NCBI GenBank assembly: GCA_021324755.1
Contig: JAJPIL010000002.1
Coordinates: 1 to 42,339, forward strand
Length of the DNA stretch: 42,339 nt
Reading direction: 5' to 3'
Source of the DNA: Pseudomonadota bacterium
GTDB lineage: Bacteria > Desulfobacterota > Binatia > Binatales > Binataceae
The number at the start of each line of letters is the position of its first letter. Position 1 is the stretch's first letter. The notes under the pieces were generated by a model. It did not search any database. It was given only the letters and a program-made list of their open reading frames with translations, and was not told where the DNA came from. Below, in pieces: positions 11,814 to 35,124 of this stretch. A program made the translations under genes and the position numbers.

Positions 11814-12671
11814 CTAATTACGGCTCTGTCGCGCAATTTCAGCGAAAGTAGTAAGCTTTACCCCGTTTGCTGCTAAGAGCTCTTTTAAGCGAGGGTCGGT
11901 CAGTAACGCAACTTCGCGTTGAGCTTCGGCGGGCGGAGGCGTGCGCCCGACGTCTGCCGCCGGATGGAAATAAATCTCGGTCACTCCTTGCGGCAAGCGC
12001 GGAATGAGACCGTGCAGGTAGGACTCGGTAAATCGGCCGCTCTGATGCAGCCCGAAAAGCCAATCATTCGACTTAAGGCCGCGCGCTTTTGCTAACCGGC
12101 GCATCCGTGCCGAAAGCAGCCGGAAGATGACCGCCTCGACCACCTTTCGCGCGGCGGCCGCGCGCGATAGCCGTAGAGTCGTCAAAAGCGGTTCCCTTAC
12201 CAAACGCAGACATGGAATCCGAAATTCTGCGGCCAAGTCCATCACGATATCGCAAATCACCGGATGGGCGTGAAAGTTCAAGTGCCCGTTGATGTGGTTC
12301 AAGTAGCCCACGAGTTCGAGATGTTTTTCCACTTGAGCCCGACACTCATCCCGCAGTTGAGAGCGAAGCCGGCGGTCGAAAAAATATCTGAGACCCGTCA
12401 CCACCGGATTGCTCGCAAACGCTCCTTGCGCGTCGACCAGACCCGCAACGCGCCCCGAATCGAGCAGGCTCAAGCCACGGCAAACGACTAGGTGCAATCC
12501 GACGTCTAGAGCTGGATTATCTCTGGCTGCGGCGGCCGCCTCCTTGTGGGCTTCACCGGTAACCATTAGGCTTGCGCTCGTCAGTACGCCTTCTCGATGC
12601 GCTTTTAAGATGCCCGCATTGGCCTCCGGCGAGAAGCCGAAGTCGTCGCCGTTGATAATAAGAGCCCTCAA
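11814..12671 (-). CDS. hpnK: Hopanoid biosynthesis-associated deacetylase HpnK (YdjC/ChbG-like)
   Basis: Family members are metal-dependent carbohydrate deacetylases. HpnK removes the acetyl group from N-acetylglucosaminyl bacteriohopanetetrol on the way to glucosaminyl-BHT and the BHT cyclitol ether. The 285-residue protein starts MRALIINGDDFG, where the DD pair binds metal. It continues with GLHLVVCRG, the His motif HINGHLNFHAHP and TEIYFHPAAD near the end. HpnI (the glycosyltransferase that makes its substrate) and HpnJ are not in this window, so they are elsewhere or the substrate differs. It is divergent from hpnG across 91 bases. Confidence 0.88.
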   Translation of the reverse strand: MRALIINGDDFGFSPEANAGILKAHREGVLTSASLMVTGEAHKEAAAAARDNPALDVGLHLVVCRGLSLLDSGRVAGLVDAQGAFASNPVVTGLRYFFDRRLRSQLRDECRAQVEKHLELVGYLNHINGHLNFHAHPVICDIVMDLAAEFRIPCLRLVREPLLTTLRLSRAAAARKVVEAVIFRLLSARMRRLAKARGLKSNDWLFGLHQSGRFTESYLHGLIPRLPQGVTEIYFHPAADVGRTPPPAEAQREVALLTDPRLKELLAANGVKLTTFAEIARQSRN

Positions 12672-20392: not shown

Positions 20393-22398
20393 TGCCCGTT
20401 GGACCCGGCAACGCTCTGAGCTTCAAGCCGCTTGCGCAAGCGCCCCAGGGCCATGAGCGGAAAGTACTGCGCGTAGCCGCCGTAATGGAGGTAGAAATGG
20501 TTGGGGAAACCGGTGCCGGTGAATTCGCTCTCGTGCCAAAGGCCGTTTTCATCCACGTTCGACATCAGCCACTGGGCGCCGCGGATCGCCTCGTCGCTCA
20601 CGGCGTCCTCGCCCGACAAAAGGCCGATCAGCGCCCACGCGGTCTGCGAAGGCGTGCTGGCTCCTTTGCCGCGATAAAGCGGGTCCTTATCGCTCAAGCA
20701 GCTTTCGCCCCAGCCGCCGTCGGGGTTCTGCTTCGATTTGAGCCACCGAACCGCCCTTTTCACCCAAGGCTCGTCGAGGTCGACGCCTATCGAGCGCAAG
20801 CCCGCCAGCACTGAGAAACATCCGTAGATGTAATTCACTCCCCAGCGACCGCGCCATGAGCCGTCGCTCTCCTGGTGGCGTTTGAGCCATGCGATTGCGC
20901 GTTGCGCTACCGGGTGATTGGCCCTATAGCCGACGTTCCCCATCATTTCGAGCACTCGCCCAGTCACGTCGGCACATGTGGGATCGGTGACCGCCTCCAC
21001 ATCGGCAAATGGGGCCTTGTTGAGCCAGTGAGCTTTGTTGTCGGCGTCGAACGCCGCAAACCCGCCGTCGCTCGACTGCATGCCGAGCACCCAGTTTGCG
21101 CCCGCGCTAATCGCGCGCTCGATCGCCTCCTGGTCGGCGAGCCGACAGTTAGCCAGAACGCACAGCGCCACGGCGGCGTCGTCAACGTCGGGATACCAAT
21201 CGTTGTAAAACTGAAAGGCCCAGCCACCCGGCGAAAGCTCAGGACGTTTGACCGCCCAGTCGCCGCGCCGGTGGATCTGTTTTGCCACAAGCCAGCGCGC
21301 GGCCTTTTGCAGCTCTTGCGCGTCAGGCGCCGAGCCGGACTCGATGAGCGCTTTTGCGGCGAGTACCGTGTCCCATACGGGCGATACACAAGGCTGGTAG
21401 AGAGCTTTGTCGCCCATCTCCCATACAAGCTCATGGCTCGCCTCGAGCGCTTTGCGGATTACCGGATGGTCGTTGGTGTAACCCAACCCCTTTAGCGCCA
21501 TCGTCGTAAGCAAATAACAAGGCTGAATCCCGGCCCAGGAACCGTTAGCATCCTGGCGCTCAAGGACCCACTGTTCGAGCTTGCGCAGGGCTTGTGCGCG
21601 CAATTTTTGAATCGGCCTTCGATTGTACAAGCTCAACAGCCAATCGGCAGCGTTGAGCAGAGTGGTCAGAGACAGCCAGTTATTGTCACGCCTGCGACTA
21701 AACCGAGTAAAATGCGGCGGCAGGATATAGAGCTCGAGCACGCCCTCCACATAGCCGATTTTGACCACCGGACGCGTTGCCTGAAGCAGCATAAGCGCCG
21801 CCACGATCGGTCGCGCCCAGGCCGACAATTTGTACATGTGCACCGGAAACCAGGTCGGCAAGAGCGCTATTTCGACCGGCACGGCGGGCGTACATTCCCA
21901 GGGCACTTGGCCCAACGAGGCTAGATAGAAGCGCGCGAGCACTCCGATTTTGGCTATGCCGCCATTGGCCAACACCCACCGTCGCGCGCGAGTCATCGCC
22001 TCCTCGCCGGCCCGACGCCCGGTCAGTTTCAAAGCGGCGTAAGCCTCGACCGTCGTGGTCAGATGCCCCGGCCCTCCATGAAAAAGGTTCCAGCTTCCAT
22101 CCTCGGATTGGGTTTCGAGCAGGTAGTTGGCGATCCGGGTTTCGAGCGCCGGTTCGACCCGCCCCATAAAGTGATTGAACATAACGAACTCGGCATTCAT
22201 CTGCGCGTTCGCGGTCAGAGGAAACATCCAGTAACCTTCAGGATGTTGCGCGGCGATGAGTGCCCGGCGGGCTCGTTCGACGACCTCGTCCAGTTGCGCC
22301 TTAAAACTAGCTCGTTCGTCCGCGACAGTCTTGGCTTCGCCGTTGGCCTGCGCCACAGCTTCTCCCAGCGAATCCAGGTTGTTCAGTTCAGTCGCCAT
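20389..22398 (-). CDS. shc: Squalene-hopene cyclase (HpnF)
   Basis: Cyclises squalene to hopene/diplopterol at the membrane. At 669 residues it has family length and shows the QW repeats of this fold (QSEDGSW, QDANGSWAG, QSSDGGFAAFD, QESDGSWRGRWG, QNPDGGWGES). The catalytic acid motif, usually DxDDTA, reads DVDDAA at residues 404-409: both key aspartates are kept, but Thr is Ala through ACC-type to GCC. The N-terminal extension (about 1-38) is acidic and probably disordered. It sits between a zinc dehydrogenase (52 bases upstream) and dxr (four-base overlap). Confidence 0.94.
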   Translation of the reverse strand: MATELNNLDSLGEAVAQANGEAKTVADERASFKAQLDEVVERARRALIAAQHPEGYWMFPLTANAQMNAEFVMFNHFMGRVEPALETRIANYLLETQSEDGSWNLFHGGPGHLTTTVEAYAALKLTGRRAGEEAMTRARRWVLANGGIAKIGVLARFYLASLGQVPWECTPAVPVEIALLPTWFPVHMYKLSAWARPIVAALMLLQATRPVVKIGYVEGVLELYILPPHFTRFSRRRDNNWLSLTTLLNAADWLLSLYNRRPIQKLRAQALRKLEQWVLERQDANGSWAGIQPCYLLTTMALKGLGYTNDHPVIRKALEASHELVWEMGDKALYQPCVSPVWDTVLAAKALIESGSAPDAQELQKAARWLVAKQIHRRGDWAVKRPELSPGGWAFQFYNDWYPDVDDAAVALCVLANCRLADQEAIERAISAGANWVLGMQSSDGGFAAFDADNKAHWLNKAPFADVEAVTDPTCADVTGRVLEMMGNVGYRANHPVAQRAIAWLKRHQESDGSWRGRWGVNYIYGCFSVLAGLRSIGVDLDEPWVKRAVRWLKSKQNPDGGWGESCLSDKDPLYRGKGASTPSQTAWALIGLLSGEDAVSDEAIRGAQWLMSNVDENGLWHESEFTGTGFPNHFYLHYGGYAQYFPLMALGRLRKRLEAQSVAGSNGQ

Positions 22399-22450
22399 AA
22401 GCTTCCACGCCCTGCAAGTTTTCGATCGGGTAGCCGATAAGATTTAGCCG

Positions 22451-23554
22451 CTATGGAACGATCGCGCATTTAAGAAGCTCTCCGCGTTCGAGCAGAGCGA
22501 ACACCTCTGCCAGCTCGGCCAACCTACGTCGCGAATCGATTATGCGTTCTACTCCAGGCAACGCATGTTCTTGCAAGGCGGCCAGCGCCGCGGCTACGTC
22601 GCGCGGCCGATAGTGAAACGGAGCCAACAGGGTCAAATTGTCGTAATGCATCCGCCGAGTATCGAGAGCGACTGAGGTGCCGCTAGGACATCCGCCGAAG
22701 AACACCACCCGTCCCCCACGCCGCACCAGTCGCAGCGCTTGTTCCCATCCGGCTACCTGGCCGGTCGCTTCGATCACTACGTCAGGACCGAAACCGCTAT
22801 TAAGCCGGCAAGCCACTGCCTCGACTTCCTCGCGCTCGACGTCGATCACGTCGTCAGCGCCAAACTCAGCTGCGGCTCGCAGCCGGTTAGCCCTACGGCC
22901 CGCCACGACCACGCGCCGCGCTCCGCGCGCCTTGAGCGCGCTCAGATGAAGCAAGCCCAGCGGCCCGGCCCCCAGGATCAGAACTGTCTCAAAGCTTTGC
23001 ACCTGGGCCATCTCCTGCGCATGAAAGACGCAGGATAGCGGCTCGAGCAGAGCAGCCACTTCGAAGGAAACATCCGAAGGTTTCTTAAACGTATGGCGCG
23101 CGACGACGTGAGCCGGAAGCAGCAAGTAGTCGGCGTAAGCGCCCATCACGATATGCTCGACGACCTGCCGACACAGGTTTTCCTGGCCACGCCAGCAAAA
23201 AAAACAGGTCATGCACGGAGCGCTCGGCACGGCCACGATGGCGTCGCCGATTTTGAACTTGTCCACACCTGGTCCGGCCTGTGCGACGATACCCGAGAAC
23301 TCGTGGCCCAGAGGCGTCGGCGTGGGAAACAGCGGATGGCCTCGCTTGTAAGTTTTAAGATCGGTGCCGCAGCTGAGAGCGCATTTGACTTCGATCAGTA
23401 GCTCTCCGGCTTTCGGTTTCGGTAGCTCGACCTCTCTCATTTCAAGCTTGCCTGGGGAATACAGAACGGCCTGACGGCCGCGTCCCAGGCCGTTTGCGTT
23501 GACCATTTCCACGTTCCGCGCAGAGTTTTCACAGCTTGCCATATGCAACAGCAC
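22451..23554 (-). CDS. Zinc-dependent medium-chain dehydrogenase (threonine/sorbitol dehydrogenase type)
   Basis: An alcohol/polyol dehydrogenase of 367 residues. It has the catalytic zinc region ALSCGTDLKTYKRG and PLGHEFSG, a structural zinc loop with four Cys (PCMTCFFCWRGQENLC), and the NAD(P) motif LILGAGPLGLLHLSALKARG. The start is GTG 23554, sharing one base with the ispA stop, with GGGAG five bases ahead; ATG 23542 lacks such a site. Its place between ispA and shc suggests a role with isoprenoid, hopanoid or polyol intermediates, but the substrate cannot be read from the sequence. Confidence 0.85.
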   Translation of the reverse strand: MLLHMASCENSARNVEMVNANGLGRGRQAVLYSPGKLEMREVELPKPKAGELLIEVKCALSCGTDLKTYKRGHPLFPTPTPLGHEFSGIVAQAGPGVDKFKIGDAIVAVPSAPCMTCFFCWRGQENLCRQVVEHIVMGAYADYLLLPAHVVARHTFKKPSDVSFEVAALLEPLSCVFHAQEMAQVQSFETVLILGAGPLGLLHLSALKARGARRVVVAGRRANRLRAAAEFGADDVIDVEREEVEAVACRLNSGFGPDVVIEATGQVAGWEQALRLVRRGGRVVFFGGCPSGTSVALDTRRMHYDNLTLLAPFHYRPRDVAAALAALQEHALPGVERIIDSRRRLAELAEVFALLERGELLKCAIVP

Positions 23555-24474
23555 TACATCTCCCGCTCCACCACGTAGGAGGCCAGACCCCGCAAAGCTT
23601 GCGCTTGAGCGCCAAAGCCTGCCAGCGCCTCCAGGGCTCGCTGCTTGAGCTGATGGGCCAGCTCACGGGAGCGTTCGAGCCCGAGCAGCGTCGGATAGGT
23701 AGCCTTACCGTGAGCTTTATCCTTTTGTGTGCGTTTACCCATGCGCTCGGCTGAGGAAGACACGTCCAGGATGTCATCCATAATCTGGAAAGCCAGACCG
23801 GCATCGCGCGCATACGCGCTCAAAGCCTCGATCTCGTCCGGTTGAGCGCCTCCAAGCCATCCGCCACCCCGCGCTGCCACGACGAACAACGCACCGGTCT
23901 TCTTGCTGTGCAGCAGCTCGAGCTCGTCGATGCCGAGTGTGCGACCTTCGCTCAGTATATCCAGGGTTTGCCCCCCCACCATTCCCGCAGAGCCTGCGGC
24001 GCAAGCAAGCTCTTGTATGACGCGCAACACGACGTTTGCCGAAACGTCGGTTTCCTGCCATTCAGCCACCACCTTAAAAGCGTCAGTGAGCAAGGCATCT
24101 CCTGCCAAAGTGGCGATCGCTTCTCCGTAAACCTTGTGGTTGGCCGGTTTTCCGCGCCGCAAGTCGTCGTCATCCATACATGGCAGATCGTCGTGGATCA
24201 TCGAGTAGGTGTGGATCATCTCGAGCGCGCAAGCAAAACCCAAGGCGCTACGAGTTCGCCCACCCACAGCTTCGCATGCTGCCAGTGCAATTACAGGCCG
24301 CAGCCGCTTGCCGCCCGCAAACAGGCTGTACCGCATCGCCTCGAAAAGCACCGAAGCGGGACCTTCGCCTTGGGGAACAACGAGGCGAAGAGTATCCTCG
24401 ACCAGCTTTCGCCGTTCCTCCAGATAATGCTCGAAGTTAAAGCCTTGAGGGTCAGCTTCTTTTGCTGTAGTCAT
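23554..24474 (-). CDS. ispA: Polyprenyl (farnesyl/geranylgeranyl) diphosphate synthase
   Basis: Chain-elongating trans-prenyltransferase that makes FPP, the substrate of HpnD. From ATG 24474, with GAGG five bases upstream, it has 306 residues; a TTG at 24489 is less likely. It has the first aspartate-rich motif DDLPCMDDDDLRRG, the second FQIMDDILD, GGKRLRP near the N-terminus and the KKTGALF motif. It is the first gene of the run ispA-dehydrogenase-shc-dxr-hpnC-hpnD-hpnE-hpnA. Product length (C15 or C20) is not decided by sequence alone; FPP is inferred from context. Confidence 0.9.
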   Translation of the reverse strand: MTTAKEADPQGFNFEHYLEERRKLVEDTLRLVVPQGEGPASVLFEAMRYSLFAGGKRLRPVIALAACEAVGGRTRSALGFACALEMIHTYSMIHDDLPCMDDDDLRRGKPANHKVYGEAIATLAGDALLTDAFKVVAEWQETDVSANVVLRVIQELACAAGSAGMVGGQTLDILSEGRTLGIDELELLHSKKTGALFVVAARGGGWLGGAQPDEIEALSAYARDAGLAFQIMDDILDVSSSAERMGKRTQKDKAHGKATYPTLLGLERSRELAHQLKQRALEALAGFGAQAQALRGLASYVVEREM

Positions 24475-24850
24475 CGTCGCCTCGGACAATCAATTGCGGC
24501 AAGCTGAAATAGGCCACCATGACGGCCTGCGCTGGTCGAGCTGTGCAAGAGGCAGGCAGAAAAAGCGCGACGAGTCGGCTCTCGTTTCGCGCTTGCCCAT
24601 CTCGCGCGCTCCTCTCAAGGCTCGGTCTGCCGAGCTAACCGCGCCAACTATGCAACCAGCTAAATCCAATTGCCTCGGACCAGATCCGGCCATGACAATC
24701 GCCTCCCCCATCCGTATCCCGATGCCCCACTGAGCCTTAGCTATAGTACTGGCGGACCACCAGCAAAAGAACCCTTTGCGCTTCATAAAGCCGGATGCCG
24801 ACAGATCGTGGAAAGAAAGTGGCCGCGCCAAGCTGCAGCTCGGCTTATGT
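24475..24850. other. Intergenic region upstream of the ispA-hpnA operon
   Basis: 376 bases without a credible gene; a 113-codon frame on minus has no family features and odd composition. It should hold the operon promoter and leader. On the minus strand TTGCTG (24766-24761) and TATAGC (24745-24740) form a weak promoter candidate with a 15-base spacer. Between it and ispA are a long hairpin at 24563-24594 (perfect AAGCGCG/CGCGCTT arms with inner CGAG/CTCG) and a smaller one at 24621-24634 (CTCGG-TCTG-CCGAG). Confidence 0.45.
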
Positions 24851-25849
24851 TTACGCTATATAATGGCGCACCAAAGCGATCGTGTCCCGCAGGTTTTTGC
24901 CGAAGTCCAAAGCCACTGTTCCCTCGAAGCCTGAGTGTAACTTACAATGGCGACACCTTGGATCCTGCCGGGTCCGGTAAAACTCCCAGTCGGTCGCTTC
25001 GTGCATCTCTTTAAACGTACGGTAGTGGCCGTTGGTGATAAGGTAGCAAGGCCCCTTCCATCCTTGGGGATTGCGCGTCACTGTCGTCCACGGACTGCAC
25101 AGAAGATCTCGCTCGCCCAAGAGGAAATCGAGGTAAATAGGGGTGTTGATGATATTGTGGCGACGGGCGAGCTTGCGCACCCGATAAAACTTGTACGGCA
25201 TCTCATCGGTCTTGAGGTAAATGTCGTTGGAAAGCACTTGATAATGGTAACCTGGCGTCACCAGCATCCCATCCACACCGAGGCTGGTGAGCAGCTTGAT
25301 CATTTCCTCGAGCTCCTCGGCCGACGTTTCGCGATAAACCGTAGTATTGGTCTGGACGCGATATCCCTCTGCCTTCAGAAGCTTTATCATCTTGATGCAG
25401 TGGTCGAAGACGCCCTGACGCGCCACGACTCGGTCGTGCGTCTCGCGCATCCCGTCGAGATGGATGTTGAAGCTGAGGTAAACGTTGGGCTTCACGTGCT
25501 TAATGAATCGCTCGAGCAACAAGGCATTAGTGCAGATCTGAACGTGGCGGCGCTTTTCGATAAGCCCTTTGGTCAGCTCGACGATGTGCTTATAGATAAG
25601 CGGTTCGCCGCCGCAGATCGAAACTATAGGCGTGTCCGCCTCGTCAGCCGCACCCAAAGCCTCTTCCAAAGGCATTTGGTCCCATAGCGTGTCTTTGTAC
25701 TCGACGATTCGACCGCAACCGACACACGCCAGGTTGCAAGCGTGGAGCGGCTCGAGCATCAAGACCAAAGGGAAATACTTCTCCCCGGCCTTTCTTTTGC
25801 GAGCGATATGGCGAGCCAAATCGATCATTAGCCTAAGCGGCATTCGCAT
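24851..25849 (-). CDS. hpnH: Adenosylhopane synthase, radical SAM protein HpnH
   Basis: Joins a 5'-deoxyadenosyl radical to diploptene, giving adenosylhopane, the entry to side-chain-extended hopanoids. In 332 residues the radical-SAM cluster motif is CNLACVGC (Cys 38, 42, 45). Then come SICGGEPLIYKHI, QICTNALLLERF, FNIHLDG and a C-terminal Cys set CRHCKLHSGFE matching the HpnH family. It has a good GAGAGG ribosome site. It follows the TetR gene by 45 bases, so the two are probably cotranscribed and HpnH supply is under that regulator. Confidence 0.92.
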   Translation of the reverse strand: MRMPLRLMIDLARHIARKRKAGEKYFPLVLMLEPLHACNLACVGCGRIVEYKDTLWDQMPLEEALGAADEADTPIVSICGGEPLIYKHIVELTKGLIEKRRHVQICTNALLLERFIKHVKPNVYLSFNIHLDGMRETHDRVVARQGVFDHCIKMIKLLKAEGYRVQTNTTVYRETSAEELEEMIKLLTSLGVDGMLVTPGYHYQVLSNDIYLKTDEMPYKFYRVRKLARRHNIINTPIYLDFLLGERDLLCSPWTTVTRNPQGWKGPCYLITNGHYRTFKEMHEATDWEFYRTRQDPRCRHCKLHSGFEGTVALDFGKNLRDTIALVRHYIA

Positions 25850-25894: not shown

Positions 25895-26548
25895 TTACCC
25901 GTTCGACACCACAGTGGACCCATCCGTTCGAGCGCTCTGCTCGCCAAATAGCAACGAGTAGAGCATCTCGAGCACTTTCTCCACCATCGGCTCGGCCGTG
26001 TGCAGGAATAACACGTCGACCAATAACCCGTTGAGCGTGGAAATCAGAAAGCTGGTTGTGGTCTCAACGTCAAGTCGTCGCGAACAAAGCCCTTTCTCTT
26101 GAGCCCTGCGGACGAGATCTTTTAAAAGGCAAGCGTAACTATCGTAGATACTTCTGATTTGACTCCTGAACGAGTCTGTCTTCTCCTGCTCGCTCTCTTC
26201 TTCTCGCAAAAGCCGCATCAGGAAAAAGCGCACCGCGCTAGCGTAGTCTCGCACGAACTGAACGTAAAGCTCGATCAAGCGTTTGAGTTGCTCGCGTTCA
26301 TCGAGCTCCTGCGCCTCGCTGGCGAAATCGATCGAGAACGGCTCGAGCAGCCGCTTGATGACGGCGAAAAACAGTTCCTCTTTCGACTTGAAGTGCCAAA
26401 AGATAAGCGCTTTACTGACGCGCGCCTGACGCGCCACCTCTGACATCGAGGCTTCATGAAAACCGCGGCTGGCGAACAGGCGGGATGCGGCGCGCAAAAT
26501 TTCGTCACGTGACTCCTGCGACTCCTGACGAGACAGAGCGGCTGACAT
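25895..26548 (-). CDS. TetR/AcrR family transcriptional regulator
   Basis: A 217-residue one-domain repressor type. The helix-turn-helix is at about residues 34-56 (MSEVARQARVSKALIFWHFK, then SKEELF), preceded by ILRAASRLFASRGF. The C-terminal ligand-binding half is helical with no known signature. It lies directly upstream of hpnH. A perfect 11-bp inverted repeat covers its own predicted promoter, which is the usual arrangement for self-repression. The inducing ligand is unknown; a lipid or membrane stressor would fit the genes controlled. Confidence 0.9.
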   Translation of the reverse strand: MSAALSRQESQESRDEILRAASRLFASRGFHEASMSEVARQARVSKALIFWHFKSKEELFFAVIKRLLEPFSIDFASEAQELDEREQLKRLIELYVQFVRDYASAVRFFLMRLLREEESEQEKTDSFRSQIRSIYDSYACLLKDLVRRAQEKGLCSRRLDVETTTSFLISTLNGLLVDVLFLHTAEPMVEKVLEMLYSLLFGEQSARTDGSTVVSNG

Positions 26549-26781: not shown

Positions 26782-27816
26782 CTAGTAAGTCTCTTCTATC
26801 TCCTTAACCGCAACGTCCTCTCCGGACAGTTCCGCGGATTTGCGCGCAGCTACAATCGTCAGCATAAGATTGCGCAGCTCGGCGGTTCGCTGGGCGATTT
26901 CGCTGGCACCGGTACGTCCTTTTAGAGCGTCAAGAAAGTTGGCGAAGACCGGGGCGAACCACCGCGCATGATAAGAATCATCTGCCTCGTCACTTACATT
27001 AAAGCGCATGTGCTGCCCACTTTGGCTGACCAGTTTGATTACATCCGCGTCGATTTCGACAAAGCCCTTGGAGCAGCGTAACAGGGTGACGGTCTTGCGT
27101 ACCGGCGCACGCCAGGAAAGATGAACGTAGGCCACCCTTTTGCGCGAAAAGCGCAGCTTTAAGTCGACGGTTTGCTCGCCCACTCCACTTCCGACGTGAT
27201 CAAAGCGCGCCGAGACGGCGACCGGGCGCTCCTCCTCCATCAACCAACAGGCAAGGTAAAAAACGTGCCATCCGTGGTCGATTAGAATTCCCCCACCGCG
27301 CGCCGCTGGACCGAGTCGCCATCCTCAATGGCCACCTGCAGGAACAGAACGAAGCCGGGTGAAGGAAAGTTCATTGAGCTCGCCTAGCCATCCTTTCTTG
27401 AGCAGCGCGAAAGCGGTTCGAAAACTCGGAGCGTAGCGCCAATTATCGACGCAATAAAGGACCAAGCCTTGGCGCGAAGCAAGTTGTGTCAAGCGGTCGC
27501 ACTCTTCTAGGGTCAAACAAAGCGGTTTTTCAACCAGTACGTTTACGCCCGCTCTCAGGGCAGTCGCAGCGGACACCGCGTGAAATTCGGGCGGGCTCGC
27601 GATATCCAAAAAGTCTAGCCGCTCGGCTTCCAGCATCGCTTCCAAATCGCGATAAATCCTAGCTTTCGGAAGCAAACGGCTTGCTTCGTAAGCGCGCTCC
27701 GCAACCGGCTCGTGCACGGCCACGATCTCGATATCGTCGCGAGCATGGTAGGTCGGCAGATGAGCGTGCGTAACCACTTGCCCAAACCCGGATATTGCTC
27801 CGCGCAGCTTTGCCAT
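26782..27816 (-). pseudogene. Gfo/Idh/MocA family oxidoreductase interrupted by an in-frame TGA
   Basis: Reading from ATG 27816 (GGAGG six bases ahead) gives the N-terminal half of an NAD(P)-dependent sugar/inositol dehydrogenase. It has GAISGFGQVVTHAHLPTY, the EKP catalytic motif in VEKPLCLTLEECDRL, and VDNWRYAPSF. Codon 164 (27327-27325) is TGA. The same frame then continues without any shift into GWRLGPAARGGGILIDHGWH, the normal next block of the family, and runs to a stop at 26782 (about 344 codons in all). One base change would restore a full protein. Options are a recent nonsense mutation, readthrough or recoding, or a sequence error. It ends the minus arm of the head-group locus. Confidence 0.8.
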
Positions 27817-27955
27817 CAAACCCCTCCAACGCCCTAACCGCAAAATCTACCATCCGCTCACTGTTCCGAGCCCTGCCTACCGACGAGTTGAAAAAGCTCC
27901 TTTCGCAGGGAAAGCGCTAGCGGAATATCCCACAATGTTACGGCAAGTGAAACCG

Positions 27956-28435
27956 TCAACGGCCAAACCCGAAAAATTCGTTCGCATAATAAAACCTACC
28001 CACGCCCGCTGCCCGAGCACACTGCGCGTCGATCTCCTGGTCGCCAACCATCACCGAGGAGCTCAGGTCCAGGTCGTATTGCTGAGCAAGCTCAAGAATC
28101 ATCCCAGGCTTGGGTTTACGACAATCGCACCGGTCGGCGTCCTGATGCGGACAGACCTTCCAGCCAGTAAGCGCTCCTCCCAATTGGCAGTTAAGGTCCA
28201 AAAGAGCTCGTTCCAGCGCATCCAGGGTGAATCGGCCTCGAGCAACACCCGCCTGGTTCGTCACCACAAAGATAGGGGTTGTGCGCCTTATTGCGTTCAA
28301 TTTCGAGGCAACGTTAGGAAGTACCCTTATAATTATCTCGCCTTTGCTGTTCAGTGGCAGCTCTCGTCTTTCGTCGAACGCAACTAGCGTTCCAGTCAAA
28401 TCGCAAAACAGAGCTGACCGTTTTGACAAAGCCAT
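27956..28435 (-). CDS. HAD-IIIA family protein, GmhB/histidinol-phosphatase-like
   Basis: A 159-residue capless HAD protein resembling D-glycero-D-manno-heptose-1,7-bisphosphate phosphatase. It has motif I as FCDLTGTL (nucleophile Asp 12), motif II in VVTNQAGVARG, a zinc-type loop CPHQDADRCDC followed by RKPKPGM (motif III), and VMVGDQEIDAQCA (motif IV). The position two after the nucleophile is Thr instead of Asp, the residue that usually acts as general acid/base. DxTGT is normal in P-type ATPases but unusual in GmhB-like phosphatases. ATG 28435 is used; a TTG at 28456 is possible. Direct repeats of about ten bases (AAAGGTTGTT) lie just upstream. Confidence 0.8.
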   Translation of the reverse strand: MALSKRSALFCDLTGTLVAFDERRELPLNSKGEIIIRVLPNVASKLNAIRRTTPIFVVTNQAGVARGRFTLDALERALLDLNCQLGGALTGWKVCPHQDADRCDCRKPKPGMILELAQQYDLDLSSSVMVGDQEIDAQCARAAGVGRFYYANEFFGFGR

Positions 28436-28471
28436 ACCGCTAACAACCTTTAACAACCTTGGTGGGTATCT

Positions 28472-29866
28472 TTAGTTTTCAGTACGCCAGCTTATCGAGC
28501 GCTCGACCAGCTTGAAGACGTCTCTAAGGATGGCTAAACCTGCTTGGGCCTGCTCGGCGCTGAGCACCAGCGGTGGGTTGATGCGCATGCGCGCCGAATA
28601 ACCCATCGTGAGGAGGCCGCGTTTTAGAGCTTCGCTAAAAATGAAATGCATTGTTTTCTGGCCTAGCGGCTCTTTGGTCTTACGATTGCGTACGAAGTCG
28701 ATACCGATCAGTAGACCGCGACCGCGTACGTCCCCAATAAACGGAAACTCCTCCATAAGCTCGCGTAGGCCGTTAAGCAAAATAGCGCCGACCTCTCTTG
28801 CGTTTTCCACCAACCGTTCTTCAACGATTACTCGCAACGTATGTTCCAGCGCGGCGGCCGCGAGCGGATTACCCCCGTAGCTCGACGAAGCAGAGCCAGG
28901 CAGACTGAAAGGTCCCCTTTCTACAAGCTCGGGACGACAGACAGTTGCCGACACCGGAAAACCGCCACCAATTCCTTTGCCTATCGTCATGACGTCAGGC
29001 TCGACACCGCTGTGTTCGATCGCCCACATCCGCCCGGTGCGCCCCGCGCCAGTTATCATTTCGTCGACGATCAGCAAAGCTCCTTTTTCCCGAGCCACCT
29101 TCTTGAGCGCCGGCAAGTAATCATCCGGCGGGACAACATTGCCCGTAGTGGCCTGGCATGGCTCAACCAGAATCGCGCTCACCGCTCCAGCACTCACCTG
29201 GTCGATATAGCGGCGGGCAAACTCTACACAGTACAGGCCGCATGACGGATAGCTCATTCTGAACGCACAACGATAACAATCCGCATAAGGGATCACGTAT
29301 TGCCCACTTGAAAACGGTCCGTAGCCTTTTTTGGAGCCGTCGCCCGCCAGTCCCAACACCGCGCCGGTCTTGCCATGAAACGCGCCCCAAAATCCAACTA
29401 CCTCGTGTTTGCCCGTATATGAACGAGCGACGCGCAGTGCTGCTTCTACCGCCTCTGCGCCACCGCTGAAGAGTGAAATCGCCCCGAGATAGCTAGGCAA
29501 CAACTCCGACAGCCTTTGGAGCGCCCTCAAGCGTGTCCGATTGGCAAAGCTTCCGACTATCAGGCGCTCGGCCTGAGCCGACAACGCTCGAGCCAGATCT
29601 TTTCGCCCATGACCCAGGCTGGCAACCCCAATTCCGGCTACAAAATCGAGGTAAACGTTGCCGTCGGCGTCAGTCAGCGTCGCCCCGTGACCATTTTCGA
29701 ACGCGATTTGCGCAAGCAACGTAATTTTCTGGCGGCTTGGACCGAGATAGGCCCTTTCGGCAGCGAAGATTTCGAGTGAACGTGGCCCCGGAATAGGTGT
29801 TTTCAAGGCGGGCAAAGTCGGTGAAGATTCCGCAGAATCGGGATCCCGACTAGATTTTCGCCCCAT
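28472..29866 (-). CDS. Class III PLP-dependent aminotransferase
   Basis: A 464-residue enzyme of the GABA/ornithine aminotransferase type. The PLP lysine is K297 in TIGKGIGGGFPVSA; the cofactor aspartate is in LLIVDEMITGAGRTG; SLFSGGAEAVEAALR and WGAFHGKTGAVLG are the phosphate-binding and ring-stacking regions. A Cys-containing insert CYRCAFRMSYPSCGLYC is shared with a subgroup of 4-aminobutyrate-like aminotransferases. A HpnO role (ribosylhopane to aminobacteriohopanetriol) is possible because HpnO is class III and hopanoid genes are near. However, it lies inside a six-gene minus operon of nucleotidyltransferase, HAD and ATP-grasp genes, so amination of a ketone or aldehyde polyol intermediate there is my preferred reading. 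Confidence 0.85.
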   Translation of the reverse strand: MGRKSSRDPDSAESSPTLPALKTPIPGPRSLEIFAAERAYLGPSRQKITLLAQIAFENGHGATLTDADGNVYLDFVAGIGVASLGHGRKDLARALSAQAERLIVGSFANRTRLRALQRLSELLPSYLGAISLFSGGAEAVEAALRVARSYTGKHEVVGFWGAFHGKTGAVLGLAGDGSKKGYGPFSSGQYVIPYADCYRCAFRMSYPSCGLYCVEFARRYIDQVSAGAVSAILVEPCQATTGNVVPPDDYLPALKKVAREKGALLIVDEMITGAGRTGRMWAIEHSGVEPDVMTIGKGIGGGFPVSATVCRPELVERGPFSLPGSASSSYGGNPLAAAALEHTLRVIVEERLVENAREVGAILLNGLRELMEEFPFIGDVRGRGLLIGIDFVRNRKTKEPLGQKTMHFIFSEALKRGLLTMGYSARMRINPPLVLSAEQAQAGLAILRDVFKLVERSISWRTEN

Positions 29867-29880
29867 CTCGCCACACTCTC

Positions 29881-30702
29881 CTACTTCTTTTTCCTAGCTG
29901 AAAGCAGGCTTAAACATCGCTTGGCTATCGCCGCCGCCGCCAACTCTCTGATCGGAGCAAAGCTTGGCCAATCATTAAGGTCGATCAAAAAAACACCTTG
30001 TTCGTTTACAACGGCGTCTCCCCCCCACACTTCAAGCCCTAATGCGGCTGCGGCCATTCGAGCAATTTGGGCAAGTTTCGAGTTTACGCCTGCGAATACA
30101 CTGGTTAGACCACACGGTACAAAAAAATCTTCACCGCTTACGCCGTAAAACTTAACTACCGTGCCCGACAAAGCCTGCTGCAGGTATGCCCAACGGATAC
30201 CCTTGGCGACAAAGGCCGTCAAAGCATCGTTCAGCTCGGTTAAGCTCCGCACCTCGACGACGCAACCTGAGCTCAACCCGAGCGGGTCGGCTGGTTTGAC
30301 GAACACACCTCTCTCAAGTACAAGCCCCCGCAAATCTATAGCCGCATTCCTTCCGGGTATCGCAATCAACTCTCCAGGCGGCGTTGGTACCCCCGCCCGC
30401 TTCAGGATGTGATTGAGCATGTCGCGATAGCATCTGCGAATCGAATCCGCGGAGTTTACGACCAGGACCCCGGCATTCTCAAAGGACCGAAGTAACTCCA
30501 GACTTTGCGCGCTTTTGCACATCGCAAGAACTAAGTCAAAGTTCGCCGAATCGACCTCGCGCAGGTAGTCCGGCGTCGAGACCTCGGTTGAGCAACCATG
30601 GTCTGAAAGGCGCGCCAGAACGGCGTCCATAATGGCTTTGTCGACCTCTACTCTGTCTGGGGAATGCTCAGGCTCGCGGTAGATGCCTAAAACGCGAAAC
30701 AT
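29881..30702 (-). CDS. ATP-grasp family enzyme
   Basis: A 273-residue ATP-grasp protein from ATG 30702; a TTG at 30759 would add 19 residues and neither site is strong. The visible parts are an N-terminal MFRVLGIYREPEHSPDRVE domain, the central ATP-binding strands (GVFVKPADPLGLSSGCVVEV, then the YLQQALSG strand) and VVKFYGVSGEDFF. The metal-binding end is FLIDLNDWPSFAP, with Asp and Asn as expected. ATP-grasp enzymes ligate a carboxylate to an amine or thiol, or phosphorylate inositol phosphates (ITPK type). With an aminotransferase 14 bases downstream and a nucleotidyltransferase upstream, either amide formation on a new amine or polyol phosphorylation is possible. Confidence 0.8.
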   Translation of the reverse strand: MFRVLGIYREPEHSPDRVEVDKAIMDAVLARLSDHGCSTEVSTPDYLREVDSANFDLVLAMCKSAQSLELLRSFENAGVLVVNSADSIRRCYRDMLNHILKRAGVPTPPGELIAIPGRNAAIDLRGLVLERGVFVKPADPLGLSSGCVVEVRSLTELNDALTAFVAKGIRWAYLQQALSGTVVKFYGVSGEDFFVPCGLTSVFAGVNSKLAQIARMAAAALGLEVWGGDAVVNEQGVFLIDLNDWPSFAPIRELAAAAIAKRCLSLLSARKKK

Positions 30703-30792
30703 GGTGTTCGTATAGCACTGATCATTAGGGTTTGACTCTCGCGGCAGGTGTACTGTCAATGGCCTGAGCTTTGTTTGCTTTCAGCGGGTTGA

Positions 30793-31563
30793 TTAAACAG
30801 AATTTTGCTCGCCCGCCTCTCGTAGCATCTGTTCGGCTCGTTCAAGATCTGCCATCTCGTCCACATCCACCACTTCGTCCAGCTCGACCGTCCCCAACCT
30901 CACGCTTTGCTCGACCATCAACGCAAGCAACTGCCGCAAAGCGTTTAGCCCTTTCGACCGGGCCACTGAACCCAAGGCAAATATATTAGTAGAAAAGGCA
31001 AAGATTCCCGCGGTCACTAGATTTTGATGCCCTTGCGTGAACGACGTAATCTCTGCGTCGGGCGAAACAGTGGTAAAAAGAGGAGTCGGGTCGCCCTGCC
31101 AACGAGTCACCCCAACGATGCCGCCAAAAGTTCGATCGTTGGTGGCGGGCGTGCCCATCTGGCTACTATATTCGGCCTTAAAAAGTTTCTCGGCTGCGCT
31201 AGTACAGAATTTGCTAAAGTCGCGAGCGCTCAATACTGCGTCAACTGTGATCGCGACGAAGTGGCTTGCGACGATATAATCTGCAAACGCTAGCATCGTT
31301 TCCATCGAGTTGGCCGTGTCACGCACGACAAGCTTGACCGTTGGCAAGAGACTTATCCGATCGCGTTTAATCCGCTCGAAAATCTCGCTGTTTACGATCG
31401 CGTAGACTTCCTTGATTCCCACTCGGTCCATGAGTCGGGCCTGACGAACTAGAAGCGGCTCCCCACAGACCGGCGCTAGCGCCTTGGGGAATGTTGCCCC
31501 ACTTGCGCGCAATCGTTGGCCGCGTCCGGCCGCCAAAATCGCTCCCTGCGTGAGCTTCACCAC
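30793..31563 (-). CDS. Sugar/inositol-phosphate nucleotidyltransferase (IPCT-like)
   Basis: Activates a phosphorylated alcohol to an NDP derivative, probably CDP. The 256-residue protein has the signature AILAAGRGQRLR followed by FPKAL (Lys 27) and a later metal aspartate region VAITVDAVLSA. It resembles inositol-1-phosphate cytidylyltransferase and related MobA-like enzymes. Starts GTG 31563 or 31560 overlap the stop of the upstream HAD gene, so translation is coupled. The CDP-alcohol transferase across the divergent promoter is the natural user of its product. The exact nucleotide and alcohol are unknown. Confidence 0.82.
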   Translation of the reverse strand: MVKLTQGAILAAGRGQRLRASGATFPKALAPVCGEPLLVRQARLMDRVGIKEVYAIVNSEIFERIKRDRISLLPTVKLVVRDTANSMETMLAFADYIVASHFVAITVDAVLSARDFSKFCTSAAEKLFKAEYSSQMGTPATNDRTFGGIVGVTRWQGDPTPLFTTVSPDAEITSFTQGHQNLVTAGIFAFSTNIFALGSVARSKGLNALRQLLALMVEQSVRLGTVELDEVVDVDEMADLERAEQMLREAGEQNSV

Positions 31564-32270
31564 GTAAGGTTCACGAGCTCGTCAAGATGGGTTATCGTGC
31601 GATCGACCTGGTTATATGTGCCGTCGGCTGGCATCGAAGGCCGGGCAACAAGCCACACGGTCCGCATCCCAAGCTCCCGTGCGGGCTGGCAGTCTTTTTC
31701 CAAGGAATCGCCAATCATCGCGGCATCCGCAAAGGCGACGCTGAGGCGGCTTAAAACGTAGACGAACAGGCGACTGTCTGGCTTAAAGATGCCTACGCGG
31801 CTCGAGTCGGCGACGACATCGAACAGCTCCAGGAGCCCCCCTTGAGCCAGCACAGTAGTCAAATTGCCGTAGAAGTTCGACGCCACAGCGAGGCCAAAGC
31901 GTTTACGCAATGCCTCGAGCGTCGCCCGACTTTGATGCATACCAGCTAAGGTTTGTTTTGCAAAGCCAAAAGCAATCTGCCGAGCCAGACGCAGATCATG
32001 CCAGGGACCCAGGTCGGGTGCGCTGCGCGCTAGATATCCAAATTGCAAACGAACCAAAAGGTCGAGCAGAGGCTCAAGTTCAAGAACTTCCTTCACCGGG
32101 CCTCTGCGATAACATTCGCTGGTGGCATAGTCGAAGGCAGGCTGGAGCTGGCTGCGAGTCAGAGTAATTCCTGCGGCAGCATAATGGCGCAAAAACCTGT
32201 CGAGCCAATGGTCCCCCGGTACGTCTAACGTGCCGCCAAAGTCAAAGATCAAGGCTTGGGGTTCCGTCAT
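31557..32270 (-). CDS. HAD superfamily hydrolase-like protein (subfamily I)
   Basis: A 237-residue HAD protein with an alpha-helical cap between motifs I and II. Motif I is LIFDFGGTLD (Asp 10), motif II is LAVASNFYGNL, the lysine motif is VGIFKPDSRLF, and motif IV is AAMIGDSLEKDC. As in the other HAD gene of the locus, the second aspartate of DxD is missing, here Gly. Known phosphatases such as YihX also have Gly there, so activity is not excluded. ATG 32270 is used, with a TTG at 32288 as alternative. It is the first gene of the minus arm and is coupled to the nucleotidyltransferase by a seven-base overlap. Confidence 0.82.
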   Translation of the reverse strand: MTEPQALIFDFGGTLDVPGDHWLDRFLRHYAAAGITLTRSQLQPAFDYATSECYRRGPVKEVLELEPLLDLLVRLQFGYLARSAPDLGPWHDLRLARQIAFGFAKQTLAGMHQSRATLEALRKRFGLAVASNFYGNLTTVLAQGGLLELFDVVADSSRVGIFKPDSRLFVYVLSRLSVAFADAAMIGDSLEKDCQPARELGMRTVWLVARPSMPADGTYNQVDRTITHLDELVNLTW

Positions 32271-32332
32271 AACAAGGAGTCGGTGCAATTTCCCGTAGGC
32301 TATAAGTCCAGCCGCATAGTATGGGATTGGGC

Positions 32333-32343
32333 CACATAATGTG
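32333..32343. promoter_or_regulatory. Palindrome CACATaATGTG in the divergent control region
   Basis: A perfect 11-base palindrome about 65 bases upstream of the minus-arm start. Palindromes of this size occur by chance, so it is only interesting as one of a group in the same 279-base region. Confidence 0.3.
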
Positions 32344-32349
32344 CGATCC

Positions 32350-32366
32350 GGTTTGCCCGGGAAACC
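32350..32366. promoter_or_regulatory. Near-palindrome GGTTTGCCCGGGAAACC
   Basis: Seventeen bases with two-fold symmetry and a single mismatched pair, centred in the divergent region. Candidate operator half-sites GGTTT/AAACC. Confidence 0.35.
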
Positions 32367-32378
32367 TCATCGACACCG

Positions 32379-32392
32379 CACGTTCGAACGTG
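32379..32392. promoter_or_regulatory. Perfect 14-bp palindrome CACGTTCGAACGTG
   Basis: Uninterrupted perfect palindrome near the middle of the region between the two arms. About 0.02 such sites would be expected by chance in a stretch this short (one per 4^7 positions). It is a good candidate for binding a dimeric regulator that acts on both arms. Confidence 0.5.
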
Positions 32393-32509
32393 GCTCCTCG
32401 GCGATGAGGACTAAGGATGCCGCCCCTACTCGTGCTGCATCGCTCCCGGGCTCCGTATCGCGTTACGATGCTGCCACGGCATTAGGTTTGCTCTTTTCAA
32501 TCACGTTCG

Positions 32510-32541
32510 TTGACACGACTGACCGGTTGGTCTAATAGACC
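32510..32541 (+). promoter_or_regulatory. Promoter of the CDP-alcohol transferase / radical SAM arm
   Basis: A consensus -35 (TTGACA, 32510-32515) and a five-of-six -10 (TCTAAT, 32531-32536) are 15 bases apart. The -10 lies inside the inverted repeat GGTCT-AAT-AGACC (32529-32541), a possible operator. The predicted transcription start (about 32543) is only some seven bases before ATG 32550, and there is no ribosome site, so the messenger would be nearly leaderless. Confidence 0.55.
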
Positions 32542-32549
32542 TAACAAAT

Positions 32550-33806
32550 ATGGTACATCTTGGCGAGAATCGGCCCGTCCGAACCGCCATCATATTAGAC
32601 GGCTGGCTTGGAACATATAGCCTTTTTGGCCGTTCGCTTCTTGAAAGGAATTGCAAGCTATGCCGACGGGCGGGAATCGAGCGGTTCATGATCGACTGTC
32701 CCCCAGAGCGGCAAGACGCCGTTTTGCGCGCGTTGGGCGACAAGACCGCTTGCGGGCAGCTCTTCTTTATCGACTTAAGTAAGTGGCTCAAGACTGCCCG
32801 CGATGAGCTAACGGTCTACGCTCCGTGCTTGGTCTTGAGTGCTAACGTCGTGTTTGTAGAGGCGGACCTGCGCCATTTGCTGGATACTTACGCTTCTATG
32901 CCATCATCGGCCGGCGTCAAGCTTACTGTAGACGGAGCAGACGAGCGCACCCGATTTGCTGTAGGACTTCTCGGTGGCGTGCTCGGGCAAGGCGCTTCGC
33001 TCAAAGAAATTTCCCTTGCGGGACCCACTCCTTTCGCTTTTAAGCTTACAGGTGAACTTGACGAGCGGAGGGTGATTCGGACAAGCGAGCTCAAGCTTGC
33101 CAAGGCTTTGCGCAAAGAAACGGTCGATACTGACACGTTCATTGCCCGGACCGTCGATCGACGGCTGTCGTGGCCGGTCAGCTGGATGCTTGCGCAGACC
33201 AGTGCAACGCCTAACCAAGTTACTCTGGCCAACACCGCTCTCGGGCTTCTGAGCGCATGCCTTTTGGCGGCCAAAAGCTATGGATGGCGAGTGGCGGGCG
33301 GAGCCCTTTTCGTCGTATCGATTATTGCCGACGGCGTGGACGGCGAGCTTGCCCGTTTAAAAATGTTGGAGTCGAAAGCAGGCGAACAGCTCGACCACAT
33401 CACCGACAATCTGGTGCACGCGGCTGTATTTTTGGGGATCGCCGTCAGCGCGTACCGCAAAGGTGAGGGGCTGCGTGTAGTGGCAGCGCTCGTAGCCCTG
33501 TTGATCGGCTTCTCGCTATGTGCCTACGCTATCATTCGTTCGCGACAGAAGCTTAGCGAGGCGACGGCGGCGAGCTGGTTGTCTCGTCTGGAGCGAATGA
33601 CCGGTCGCGATTTCGCCTATCTGATATTTGCACTTGCGCTAGTTGATCGCTTGGAATATTTCCTTTGGGGTGCAGCATTTGGAACTTACGTAGCTGCAAC
33701 CATTTTCTGGAGTCTACCGTGGCTCCGGACGCAAACGCGCACAACCGGACGAACGCAACCGTCTCGTCCTGACTTAGTTACGACAAAGGAGAGCTATGAA
33801 GCGTAA
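32550..33806 (+). CDS. CDP-alcohol phosphotransferase with fused degenerate nucleotidyltransferase domain
   Basis: A membrane enzyme that displaces CMP from a CDP-alcohol with a second alcohol to form a phosphodiester. The C-terminal half (about residues 210-400) has the complete family motif D261-D264-G-A268-R269, G278, D282, D286 with canonical spacing. [16 protein letters not shown] precedes it, and four to five membrane helices surround it. The N-terminal half (about 11-190) has a nucleotidyltransferase-like start ([20 protein letters not shown]) but lacks the GxGxR and Lys of active enzymes. The layout recalls bifunctional inositol-phosphate cytidylyltransferase/di-inositol-phosphate synthase, with the active cytidylyltransferase here moved to a separate gene. 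Product: phospholipid or soluble phosphodiester, undetermined. Confidence 0.85.
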
Positions 33807-35124
33807 ACCCCGCATCTTATTGATCCAGCCTACGACCGTTCATCTCGACGGCACGCCGCACAAGACAAGATGGCGGCTCATAATCGGGCTGATGATCCCG
33901 TATATTGCCGGTCTAACGCCCGACGACTTCGACGTTACGCTGTGCGACGAGCGCCTGGAGGACATCGATTTCGAGGCTGGGTGGGACCTTGTCGGGATGA
34001 CTACGACGATCGGCGCGGCTTTGCGCGCCTACCAGATCGCCGACAAGTTCCGAAAGCTCGGGATCCCGGTCGTGATGGGCGGCTTTCACGCCACACTGCA
34101 AACCGAAGAAGCGCTCAAACACGCCGACGCCGTCGTGCAGGGAGAAGCCGATCTCGTATGGGAGCAACTGCTGCGCGACTGGCAAGACGGCAAGCTCAAG
34201 CGCATTTATCGTAGCGACAAGCTCCACGACCTAAAGGGCCTGCCGCGCCCGCGCCATGAGCTGCTCAAGCTCAATCGCTATCTGTTTAAGGCCTTGCCGA
34301 TCCAGGCGACTCGCGGATGTCCCTACCGTTGCGCGTTTTGCGAAATACCGGTGTTTTACAATGGCACCTACCGGACACGACCAGTTGGTGACATCGTAGA
34401 AGAGATCAAGCAGCAAATTAAAATCACCGGCATCCGCCGCTTCCAGTTCATCGACGACCAGATAACAGGAAAGCACAGATTTGCTCGCGAGCTCTTCCGG
34501 GCGCTCATTCCACTCAACATCCGCTTTTCATGCCTTTGGACCGTCAACTCGAATCATGACGAGGAGTTACTCGAGCTGGCTGCCAAAGCTGGCGTCTTCC
34601 ACGTCAATATCGGCGTGGAATCAATCAACCAGGACAGCTTGCTGACGATACACAAGATTCAGAACCACGTAAAGGAGTACAAAAAGCTACTGGCGCGGCT
34701 CGAGAAATACGGTATCTACTACTCGCTGAATTTCCTTTTTGGCCTGGATGCCGACAAGCCCGATATTTTCGACGCGACGTTACGCTTCTTGCACGAGATC
34801 CGCGCGCCAGAAGCCTTCTTCAACACGGTGACTCCGCGCAAGGGCACCCCGATGCGAAAGCAGCTCGAGGAGGAAGACCGCGTCATTATCCCAGACGCCG
34901 ATATGTTCACGAACAACTTTAGGTGTATGTTCGTGCCCAAACAGATGTCGCCGCAGGAAGTAGAAGAAGGAGTTTGGCGTTGCACGACGGAGTTTTACTC
35001 GCTCAAGTCAATTTTCAAACGCCTTGTCTTCCCGCCTCACAAGTTTATTTGGCAGGGACTAACTGAAAACCTGCTGTTCTATTGGGGAGCCAAGCGACGC
35101 ATCGACCCGGTTGACTACTACTGA
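33796..35124 (+). CDS. B12-binding-domain radical SAM protein
   Basis: 442 residues. The N-terminal Rossmann-like B12-binding-type domain (about 5-135) includes [20 protein letters not shown] and [11 protein letters not shown]. The radical-SAM motif is CPYRCAFC (Cys 175, 179, 182). The rest of the barrel has [20 protein letters not shown] and [13 protein letters not shown], with a C-terminal region seen in many such proteins ([16 protein letters not shown]). Family members methylate unactivated carbons or form carbon-carbon or carbon-sulfur bonds. The start has a strong AAAGGAGAG site and overlaps the preceding gene by 11 bases, so the two proteins are made together. It is not a close match to HpnP, HpnR or HpnJ as I remember them; the substrate is unknown. 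Confidence 0.85.

Follow-up and report, generated by a model that had tools for sequence, protein, structure and literature searches.

A gene cassette conserved across several bacterial phyla may encode a pathway for an aminocyclitol phosphate head group

Known routes to aminated or phosphate-linked cyclitols each resemble in part a gene cassette that we describe here from the 42,339-base window analyzed, which is the entire contig C9 of the 3.07 Mb genome of a soil bacterium of the family Binataceae. In the streptomycin-type pathways, aminocyclitols are made by oxidation of inositol and transamination, combined with kinase and phosphatase steps, and this is the logic proposed for the cassette; however, their product is a sugar antibiotic and their aminotransferase is of another class, whereas the cassette would yield a head group activated with CDP. 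Bacteriohopanetetrol cyclitol ether, made by HpnI, HpnK and HpnJ, carries an amino-cyclitol on a hopanoid, but as an ether derived from glucosamine, with neither CDP activation nor a phosphodiester. The IPCT/DIPPS system for di-myo-inositol phosphate and AF2299 of Archaeoglobus resemble the cassette in overall fold and in the activation of a cyclitol with CDP, followed by the action of a membrane CDP-alcohol phosphotransferase (CDP-AP). Inositol lipid production is relatively rare in Bacteria, according to PMC9246714 (Heaver 2022), where a putative and unproven alternative inositol-lipid cluster is proposed for B. vulgatus and Prevotella. That cluster, in Bacteroides vulgatus BVU_RS13095, 13105 and 13115, is described there as a nucleotidyltransferase (NTP), a CDP-AP and a HAD protein encoded near inositol-phosphate synthase (MIPS).

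NTP, CDP-AP and HAD genes also lie together in our window, where they belong to a cassette of six genes, HAD2, NTP, an ATP-grasp enzyme, a class III aminotransferase (AT), a Gfo/Idh/MocA dehydrogenase (Gfo) and CDP-AP, that is conserved across several phyla. Compared with the Bacteroidetes cluster, the window type adds Gfo and AT, has an extra NTP-like domain on CDP-AP, and has its MIPS gene unlinked. The genes form two divergent arms: by coordinate, the minus-strand arm reads hpnH, a TetR gene, Gfo, a second HAD gene (HAD1), AT, ATP-grasp, NTP and HAD2, and the plus-strand arm reads CDP-AP and then a radical SAM gene. An earlier note on this DNA, the original prediction, had placed eight families in these two arms, and all were located as claimed by Pfam, NCBIfam and, for the ATP-grasp enzyme, structure; its inventory had, however, overlooked an in-frame TGA that splits the dehydrogenase, as well as the NTP-like N-terminal fusion of CDP-AP.

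Among 28 loci of the same family, picked for a CDP-AP match on usable contigs, 24 contain AT, ATP-grasp, NTP, HAD1, HAD2, CDP-AP and radical SAM together, with protein identities to the window of ~37-64% (80-86% for radical SAM), and given this number the clustering of the cassette genes is not due to chance. In L042 and L049, CDP-AP and radical SAM are the only ones of these genes, and the genomes concerned (G004 and G007) have their ATP-grasp gene elsewhere; L046 gave no AT, HAD1 or Gfo match; and L053 (genome G015) contains a decayed cassette. CDP-AP is strongly matched, at E 1.3e-70 or better, in 37 of the 41 family genomes. ATP-grasp, counted at E below 1e-70, is likewise present in 37 of these 41, and elsewhere in the class in 11 of 55 genomes. 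Loci from three further families of the class (L052, L067, L069) have HAD2, NTP, ATP-grasp, AT, Gfo and CDP-AP in a compact operon; these loci gave no HAD1 match, and the radical SAM homologs in these families are on separate contigs. HAD1 (27956..28456, minus strand), a HAD-IIIA protein of the histidinol-phosphatase/GmhB type (TIGR01656 97.8 bits, cut-off 84.15), accompanies AT in 24 of 28 family loci and appears to be an addition seen in Binataceae.

Scanning the ATP-grasp alignment against 84,980 species genomes gave at least 586 confirmed relatives, of which the best 80 loci were analyzed, many of them stopping at contig ends. With cut-offs set by us (AT 300 bits; Gfo and ATP-grasp 100; NTP and HAD2 80; Hpn genes 150; any match at E 1e-4 for CDP-AP, MIPS and flippase-like genes), these best 80 loci contain NTP in 78 cases, CDP-AP in 75, HAD2 in 75, MIPS in 50 and a flippase-like gene in 33. 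AT is absent from 58, of which 56 are Bacteroidota by name, 44 have MIPS and 23 have a flippase-like gene. Full sets of MIPS, AT, Gfo, ATP-grasp, NTP, CDP-AP, flippase-like and HAD2 genes are present in each of L084, L093, L117 and L140 (Ignavibacteria, Bacteroidota) and L091 (Bdellovibrionales). Neither finding named as refuting the original prediction, absence of co-occurrence in related genomes or clear orthology of each gene to an enzyme of a separate known pathway, applies to the six core genes, which co-occur across phyla.

In the Bacteroidetes loci found (L082-L151), the ATP-grasp gene occurs together with NTP, CDP-AP and HAD genes; these loci were retrieved through ATP-grasp, so that clusters without it would be missed. 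Those of Phocaeicola and Sphingobacterium have the set of the Bacteroidetes inositol-lipid cluster plus ATP-grasp and an LPG_synthase_TM (flippase-like) gene.

The dehydrogenase gene (26782..27843, minus strand; PF01408 1.8e-20 and GFO_IDH_MocA_C3 4.1e-17 on read-through), which is interrupted by a stop in the window and is proposed to serve inositol or cyclitol oxidation, and the AT gene (28472..29866, minus strand; PF00202 1.3e-92, 311 bits against a cut-off of 30.5), proposed to convert inosose into inosamine, make up one paired module: 19 of the 22 AT-positive loci have Gfo too, compared with none of the 58 AT-negative loci. In the three AT-positive loci without Gfo (L089, L120 and L129; genomes G004, G035 and G009), Gfo lies elsewhere, beside hpnH. 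Where Gfo is apart from the cassette (G004, G009, G026, G033, G035), it adjoins TetR and hpnH in all five cases examined, and among the Binataceae loci picked for CDP-AP, TetR adjoins Gfo in nine of the nine that bear Gfo. The window dehydrogenase is the best match of its genome to an intact ortholog, the next best being 28% identical. In a tree of 29 cassette ATs (L077 being left out of the 22 named AT loci) and six class III paralogs of the same family, the cassette ATs form one group, apart from the paralogs, with support 100/98.

In related genomes, MIPS co-occurs with the cassette. MIPS lies inside six of the 22 AT-positive loci (L078, L084, L091, L093, L117, L140) and is confirmed by Pfam in all six, that of L084 having a Pfam match and no NCBIfam family at E 1e-15; in L078 (Syntrophobacterales), a MIPS of another type directly precedes HAD2. 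For 96 relatives, presence lists were entered by hand from profile searches, and ATP-grasp was counted as positive at E below 1e-70 (48 of 96), five weak matches (E 6e-4 to 1e-5) that would otherwise be counted, giving 53, being set negative. MIPS is then present in 43 of 48 ATP-grasp-positive versus 14 of 48 ATP-grasp-negative relatives, i.e., 43 have both genes, 5 ATP-grasp only, 14 MIPS only and 34 neither (Fisher p 1.4e-9, ignoring kinship). The same four counts are 9/2/13/31 outside the family (p 0.004) and 34/3/1/3 within it (p 0.007), kinship again being ignored. Outside the Bacteroidetes set, MIPS was found in 13 of the 15 named ATP-grasp-bearing genomes searched, 13 of the 15 having AT in the locus, and the two misses are metagenome-assembled genomes (MAGs) of 2.6 and 1.8 Mb. 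The genomes of L075, L077 and L080 (Chthoniobacterales/Spartobacteria) have MIPS ~17-23 kb from ATP-grasp, apparently on the same contig. Conversely, AT, Gfo and MIPS are all absent from G008 and from the genus of G015 and G027, in which hopene cyclase and radical SAM are kept. These links favor amino-inositol over other polyols.

Two kinds of MIPS occur among the cassette-bearing genomes, one of the mycothiol INO1 type and the other Bacteroidetes-like. In another family of the class, a weak and distant ATP-grasp match lies within ~1 kb of MIPS (G053:C107; G060:C110 and C113, L154), which is perhaps a second pairing of ATP-grasp with inositol.

We estimate at roughly two in three the probability that an aminocyclitol phosphate head group, most likely of amino-inositol, is made by the enzymes of the six core genes and passed to a lipid. 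What is observed is the gene content, its co-inheritance, the MIPS link, the joint presence of Gfo and AT and the folds predicted for ATP-grasp and CDP-AP; from these we infer each reaction and the sequence of steps, as well as the ring position, the acceptor lipid and the product. MIPS, encoded elsewhere in the genome, would convert glucose 6-phosphate into inositol phosphate; the phosphatase that then releases free inositol would be either HAD2 or a general inositol monophosphatase. Gfo may then oxidize one ring hydroxyl to a ketone, which AT would convert into an amine, and the ATP-grasp enzyme would re-phosphorylate the ring. Subsequent activation by NTP would yield CDP-inosamine, from which the AF2299/DIPPS-like membrane CDP-AP would transfer the phosphorylated inosamine onto a lipid alcohol. 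In the Bacteroidetes form, which has no amination pair, the same chassis would make ordinary inositol lipids.

Amino-inositol, one of the alternatives in the original prediction of an amino-inositol or amino-polyol phosphodiester, is therefore the best reading in view of the co-occurrence across phyla, the MIPS link and the Bacteroidetes cluster, and is well supported by comparative genomics as a putative product, while the added radical SAM step is unsupported. The statement in the prediction that no such pathway had been described is upheld as regards the amination module and ATP-grasp, in which the novelty lies, and fails for the chassis, which had already been proposed, without proof, for Bacteroidetes (PMC9246714). 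An amino-inositol phospholipid pathway was not among the papers listed in literature searches on inositol lipids, inosamine, amino-inositol, hopanoids and ATP-grasp enzymes, which covered few subscription journals. If the reading is true, a zwitterionic amino-inositol replacing the inositol head group would be a new class of membrane lipid and possibly a new biomarker, and Desulfoferrobacter suflitae DRH4, a named isolate bearing the cassette (locus L073), is an organism in which the prediction is testable.

Several observations weigh against this reading. On read-through, the window Gfo reaches 67.5 bits on the inositol dehydrogenase (IolG) equivalog TIGR04380, whose cut-off is 355, and NTP (38.5 bits) and CDP-AP (79.3 bits) fall far short of the 580 bits of the IPCT/DIPPS equivalog NF041135. 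HAD2 (31557..32288, minus strand; HAD-IA hydrolase, PF00702 7.6e-13), of which the first motif is DFGGT, lacks the second Asp of what we take to be the usual phosphatase motif. The fold of the ATP-grasp model is nearest to amino-acid ligases. MIPS of the window genome is on contig C12 and the cassette on C9, so that they are not adjacent; five ATP-grasp-positive relatives (G015, G019, G033, G065, G078) gave no MIPS match; and the 14 relatives with MIPS but without ATP-grasp indicate that MIPS serves other ends too.

The ATP-grasp enzyme (29881..30759, minus strand), proposed as the cyclitol kinase, probably starts at the ATG at 30702, and the window protein matches no Pfam family. Its AlphaFold2 model (pLDDT 92.4) has a complete ATP-grasp fold, to which the nearest are RimK, LysX and Ddl-type ligases and some other ATP-grasp enzymes, with Z 20-23 (RimK 7qyr: Z 23.0, root-mean-square deviation (rmsd) 2.8, 249 residues), and no ITPK chain is among the 50 fold rows listed. 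These folds, together with a sequence match to the ATP-grasp protein 7drm (6.3e-6), presumably a ligase, favor the alternative that the enzyme is an amide ligase joining an amino acid to the new amine, the ring phosphate coming straight from MIPS. The match to ITPK4 (7.3e-6) is, however, nearly tied with that to 7drm; the metal motif is D-x-N, as in three ITPK rows and in contrast to E-L-N in two other ATP-grasp rows, D-x-N being what we assume to be a mark of kinases; and the gene is kept in the 58 AT-negative loci, in which no amine-making gene was found. We therefore lean towards a putative kinase, the activity of which would close the proposed route by re-phosphorylating the ring, and treat the ligase as a tentative second candidate. 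The enzyme also points to a step that lacks an assignment in the inositol-lipid cluster of gut Bacteroidetes; the term 'ATP-grasp' does not occur in the text of PMC9246714.

A less likely alternative is that the head group is the phosphate of another amino-polyol or of an amino sugar, in which case the association with MIPS would reflect a common need for inositol. This would fit the location of MIPS on another contig in the window genome, the scores of the window Gfo on other sugar dehydrogenase models too, and the many sugar nucleotidyltransferases among the matches of NTP. It fits less well with the presence of MIPS, of two types, within six of 22 AT-positive loci and with the joint absences in two genera.

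The identity of the last two enzymes bears on the acceptor. NTP (30793..31563, minus strand; NTP_transf_3 9.9e-11), the proposed CTP:inosamine-phosphate cytidylyltransferase, has 18 alignment columns, A-G, R-L, K and several D among them, that are identical in 28 of 28 rows, including the window, and its PDB profile matches include IPCT (2xme 9.2e-12, 4jd0 2.6e-12). CDP-AP (32550..33806, plus strand; PF01066, CDP-OH_P_transf, 1.4e-15), an NTP-like domain fused to a membrane CDP-AP and the proposed head-group transferase, has profile matches to AF2299 (4o6m, 1.6e-17) and IPCT-DIPPS (4mnd, 2.4e-11). The motif DX2DGX2AR...GX3DX3D, as given in PMC9246714, is present in the window as DGVDGELAR and GEQLDHITD. 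The leading fold matches of the CDP-AP model (pLDDT 79) are to inositol-phosphate transferases and AF2299, namely AF2299 itself (Z 23.3, rmsd 3.9, 319 residues) and the Archaeoglobus IPCT-DIPPS 4mnd (Z 22.6, rmsd 4.1, 340 residues), with phosphatidylinositol-phosphate (PIP) synthases next. In the alignment, the N-terminal NTP-like domain of CDP-AP lacks the G-x-G-x-R-L loop of the NTP kind; it looks degenerate, and the CDP-cyclitol should therefore come from the separate NTP. The window differs from IPCT/DIPPS in having two separate proteins, an apparently degenerate N-terminal domain, the added Gfo and AT, and scores far below the cut-off.

Since IPCT and DIPPS make a solute and the fusion architecture of CDP-AP is like that of 4mnd, the acceptor may be a cyclitol instead of a lipid, and the product a soluble amino-inositol phosphodiester similar to di-myo-inositol phosphate. 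We consider this improbable, because the homologous Bacteroidetes cluster is proposed for inositol lipids (PMC9246714), flippase-like genes are found in 33 of the best 80 loci, and hopanoid genes adjoin the cassette in some lineages.

The B12-type radical SAM gene (33796..35124, plus strand; Radical_SAM 3.4e-20, B12-binding 3.6e-8) is probably not part of the cassette but a neighbor under strong constraint. According to the original prediction, its enzyme would modify the product, and all eight genes would be one pathway. The gene does adjoin CDP-AP in the family loci, and a single locus elsewhere, L086 of the Acidobacteria, has a 34% identical radical SAM gene ~4.5 kb past Gfo. However, radical SAM is present at 80-91% identity in 40 of the 41 family genomes, the only one without a match being G039 (83% complete), and G008, G015 and G027, which have no intact cassette, still carry it at 84-91% identity. 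Its persistence where the cassette is gone indicates a neighbor rather than a pathway member. In G066, G072, G085 and G086, moreover, the homolog (35-39%) lies on another contig than the cassette, and the gene evolves much more slowly than its cassette neighbors. Its part in the pathway is therefore unsupported and very unlikely. The protein is far below the cut-offs of named families (HpnJ 78.9 of 577.6 bits, HpnR 47.1 of 650, BchE 103.8 of 481).

The cassette lies among hopanoid genes in several lineages. In the Desulfobacterota it directly follows HpnJ (over its cut-off) in L073, L081 and L085, and in L074 it lies between HpnH and HpnL-, HpnN- and HpnM-like genes, of which only HpnH exceeds its cut-off; in L072 (bacterium HR30) the genes after it encode an HpnL-like protein (155 of 196 bits), HpnK and HpnJ. 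Genes of the bacteriohopanetetrol cyclitol ether pathway are thus neighbors of the cassette in these loci (HpnJ in L072, L073, L081 and L085, and HpnK in L072). Because of these surroundings in Binatota and Desulfobacterota, a hopanoid may be the acceptor there, and it is conceivable, although we would not expect it, that the product in these two groups is a phospho-amino-inositol hopanoid, e.g., bacteriohopanetetrol linked through a phosphodiester, with other lipids serving in lineages without hopanoids. Such a head-group class was not among the papers listed in literature searches on bacteriohopanepolyols and Binatota. The presence of hopene cyclase is by itself uninformative on the acceptor, since every one of the 41 family genomes, with the cassette or without it, has a match (over the cut-off in 40). 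Acceptors other than hopanoids probably exist as well, since 8 of the 17 AT-positive named genomes searched, two of the eight being small MAGs, gave no squalene-hopene cyclase match. HpnI exceeds its cut-off in 49 of 96 relatives and falls below it in the window genome (280 of 310 bits). That AT is a hopanoid side-chain enzyme for aminobacteriohopanetriol like HpnO, which we take to be of the same aminotransferase class, with the other genes unrelated, is most improbable despite the closeness of hpnH, as AT is not restricted to hopanoid makers and the cassette ATs form one group, in a tree that holds no HpnO sequence.

In L063 and L066, from other families of the Binatia, AF2299-like CDP-AP paralogs are at most a few kb away from HpnJ, which scores 742.7 and 707.4 bits against a cut-off of 577.6, with no other cassette gene matched at these loci; they are a further sign of a hopanoid link.

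The copy of the pathway in the window genome itself is probably decaying or broken, and thus dying or unaminated. The in-frame TGA (27325..27327, minus strand) lies in a stretch that is variable among the relatives read, and the orthologs examined have no stop there; recoding of this codon was therefore rejected, and the TGA is taken to be a nonsense mutation or an assembly error. Drift was measured at columns on which 90% of the rows other than the window agree, neither the window nor G015 being used to define them; sequences that contained internal stops, that were shorter than 0.75 or longer than 1.4 times the window protein or, for CDP-AP and radical SAM, that scored under 100 bits were dropped. 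The window deviates at 36 of 217 such columns in AT, 11 of 68 in Gfo, 14 of 76 in ATP-grasp, 13 of 66 in HAD1, 7 of 49 in NTP, 3 of 38 in HAD2 and 2 of 50 in CDP-AP, the comparison genes radical SAM and HpnH giving 19 of 328 and 1 of 49. Its deviation in AT and Gfo is greater even than in sequences of other families, in which it reaches 15 and 3 at most, and its AT end branch is 0.73, compared with 0.02-0.29 in family mates outside one identical pair. Part of this excess is due to the divergent position of the lineage in the family. G015 deviates equally in ATP-grasp (14) and HAD1 (13) and retains, besides its altered ATP-grasp gene, pieces of CDP-AP and HAD2. The stop codon, the drifted AT and ATP-grasp, and the losses in G015 and G027 together suggest that the pathway is being lost.

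Next to the cassette, the TetR regulator gene (25895..26548, minus strand; PF00440 2.3e-19) separates the dehydrogenase gene from hpnH (24851..25849, minus strand; TIGR03470 385.4 bits, cut-off 225), which encodes adenosyl-hopene transferase and starts the hopanoid cluster. This long cluster, together with isoprenoid genes, covers 11814-25849; family models were used to check HpnK, a hopanoid-associated protein (11814..12671, minus strand; TIGR03473 265.8 bits, cut-off 232.6), as well as HpnH and the cyclase, and names such as HpnA, HpnC, HpnD, HpnE and HpnG were given by eye. Finally, the gap of ~110 bases between HAD1 and the dehydrogenase gene in the window is occupied in four relatives by a luciferase-like monooxygenase gene (L033:15310-16197, L057:3485-4339, L087:14347-15198 and L044:3515-4366), identified by PF00296 (7.8e-51) for the L033 copy and by eye for the other three.

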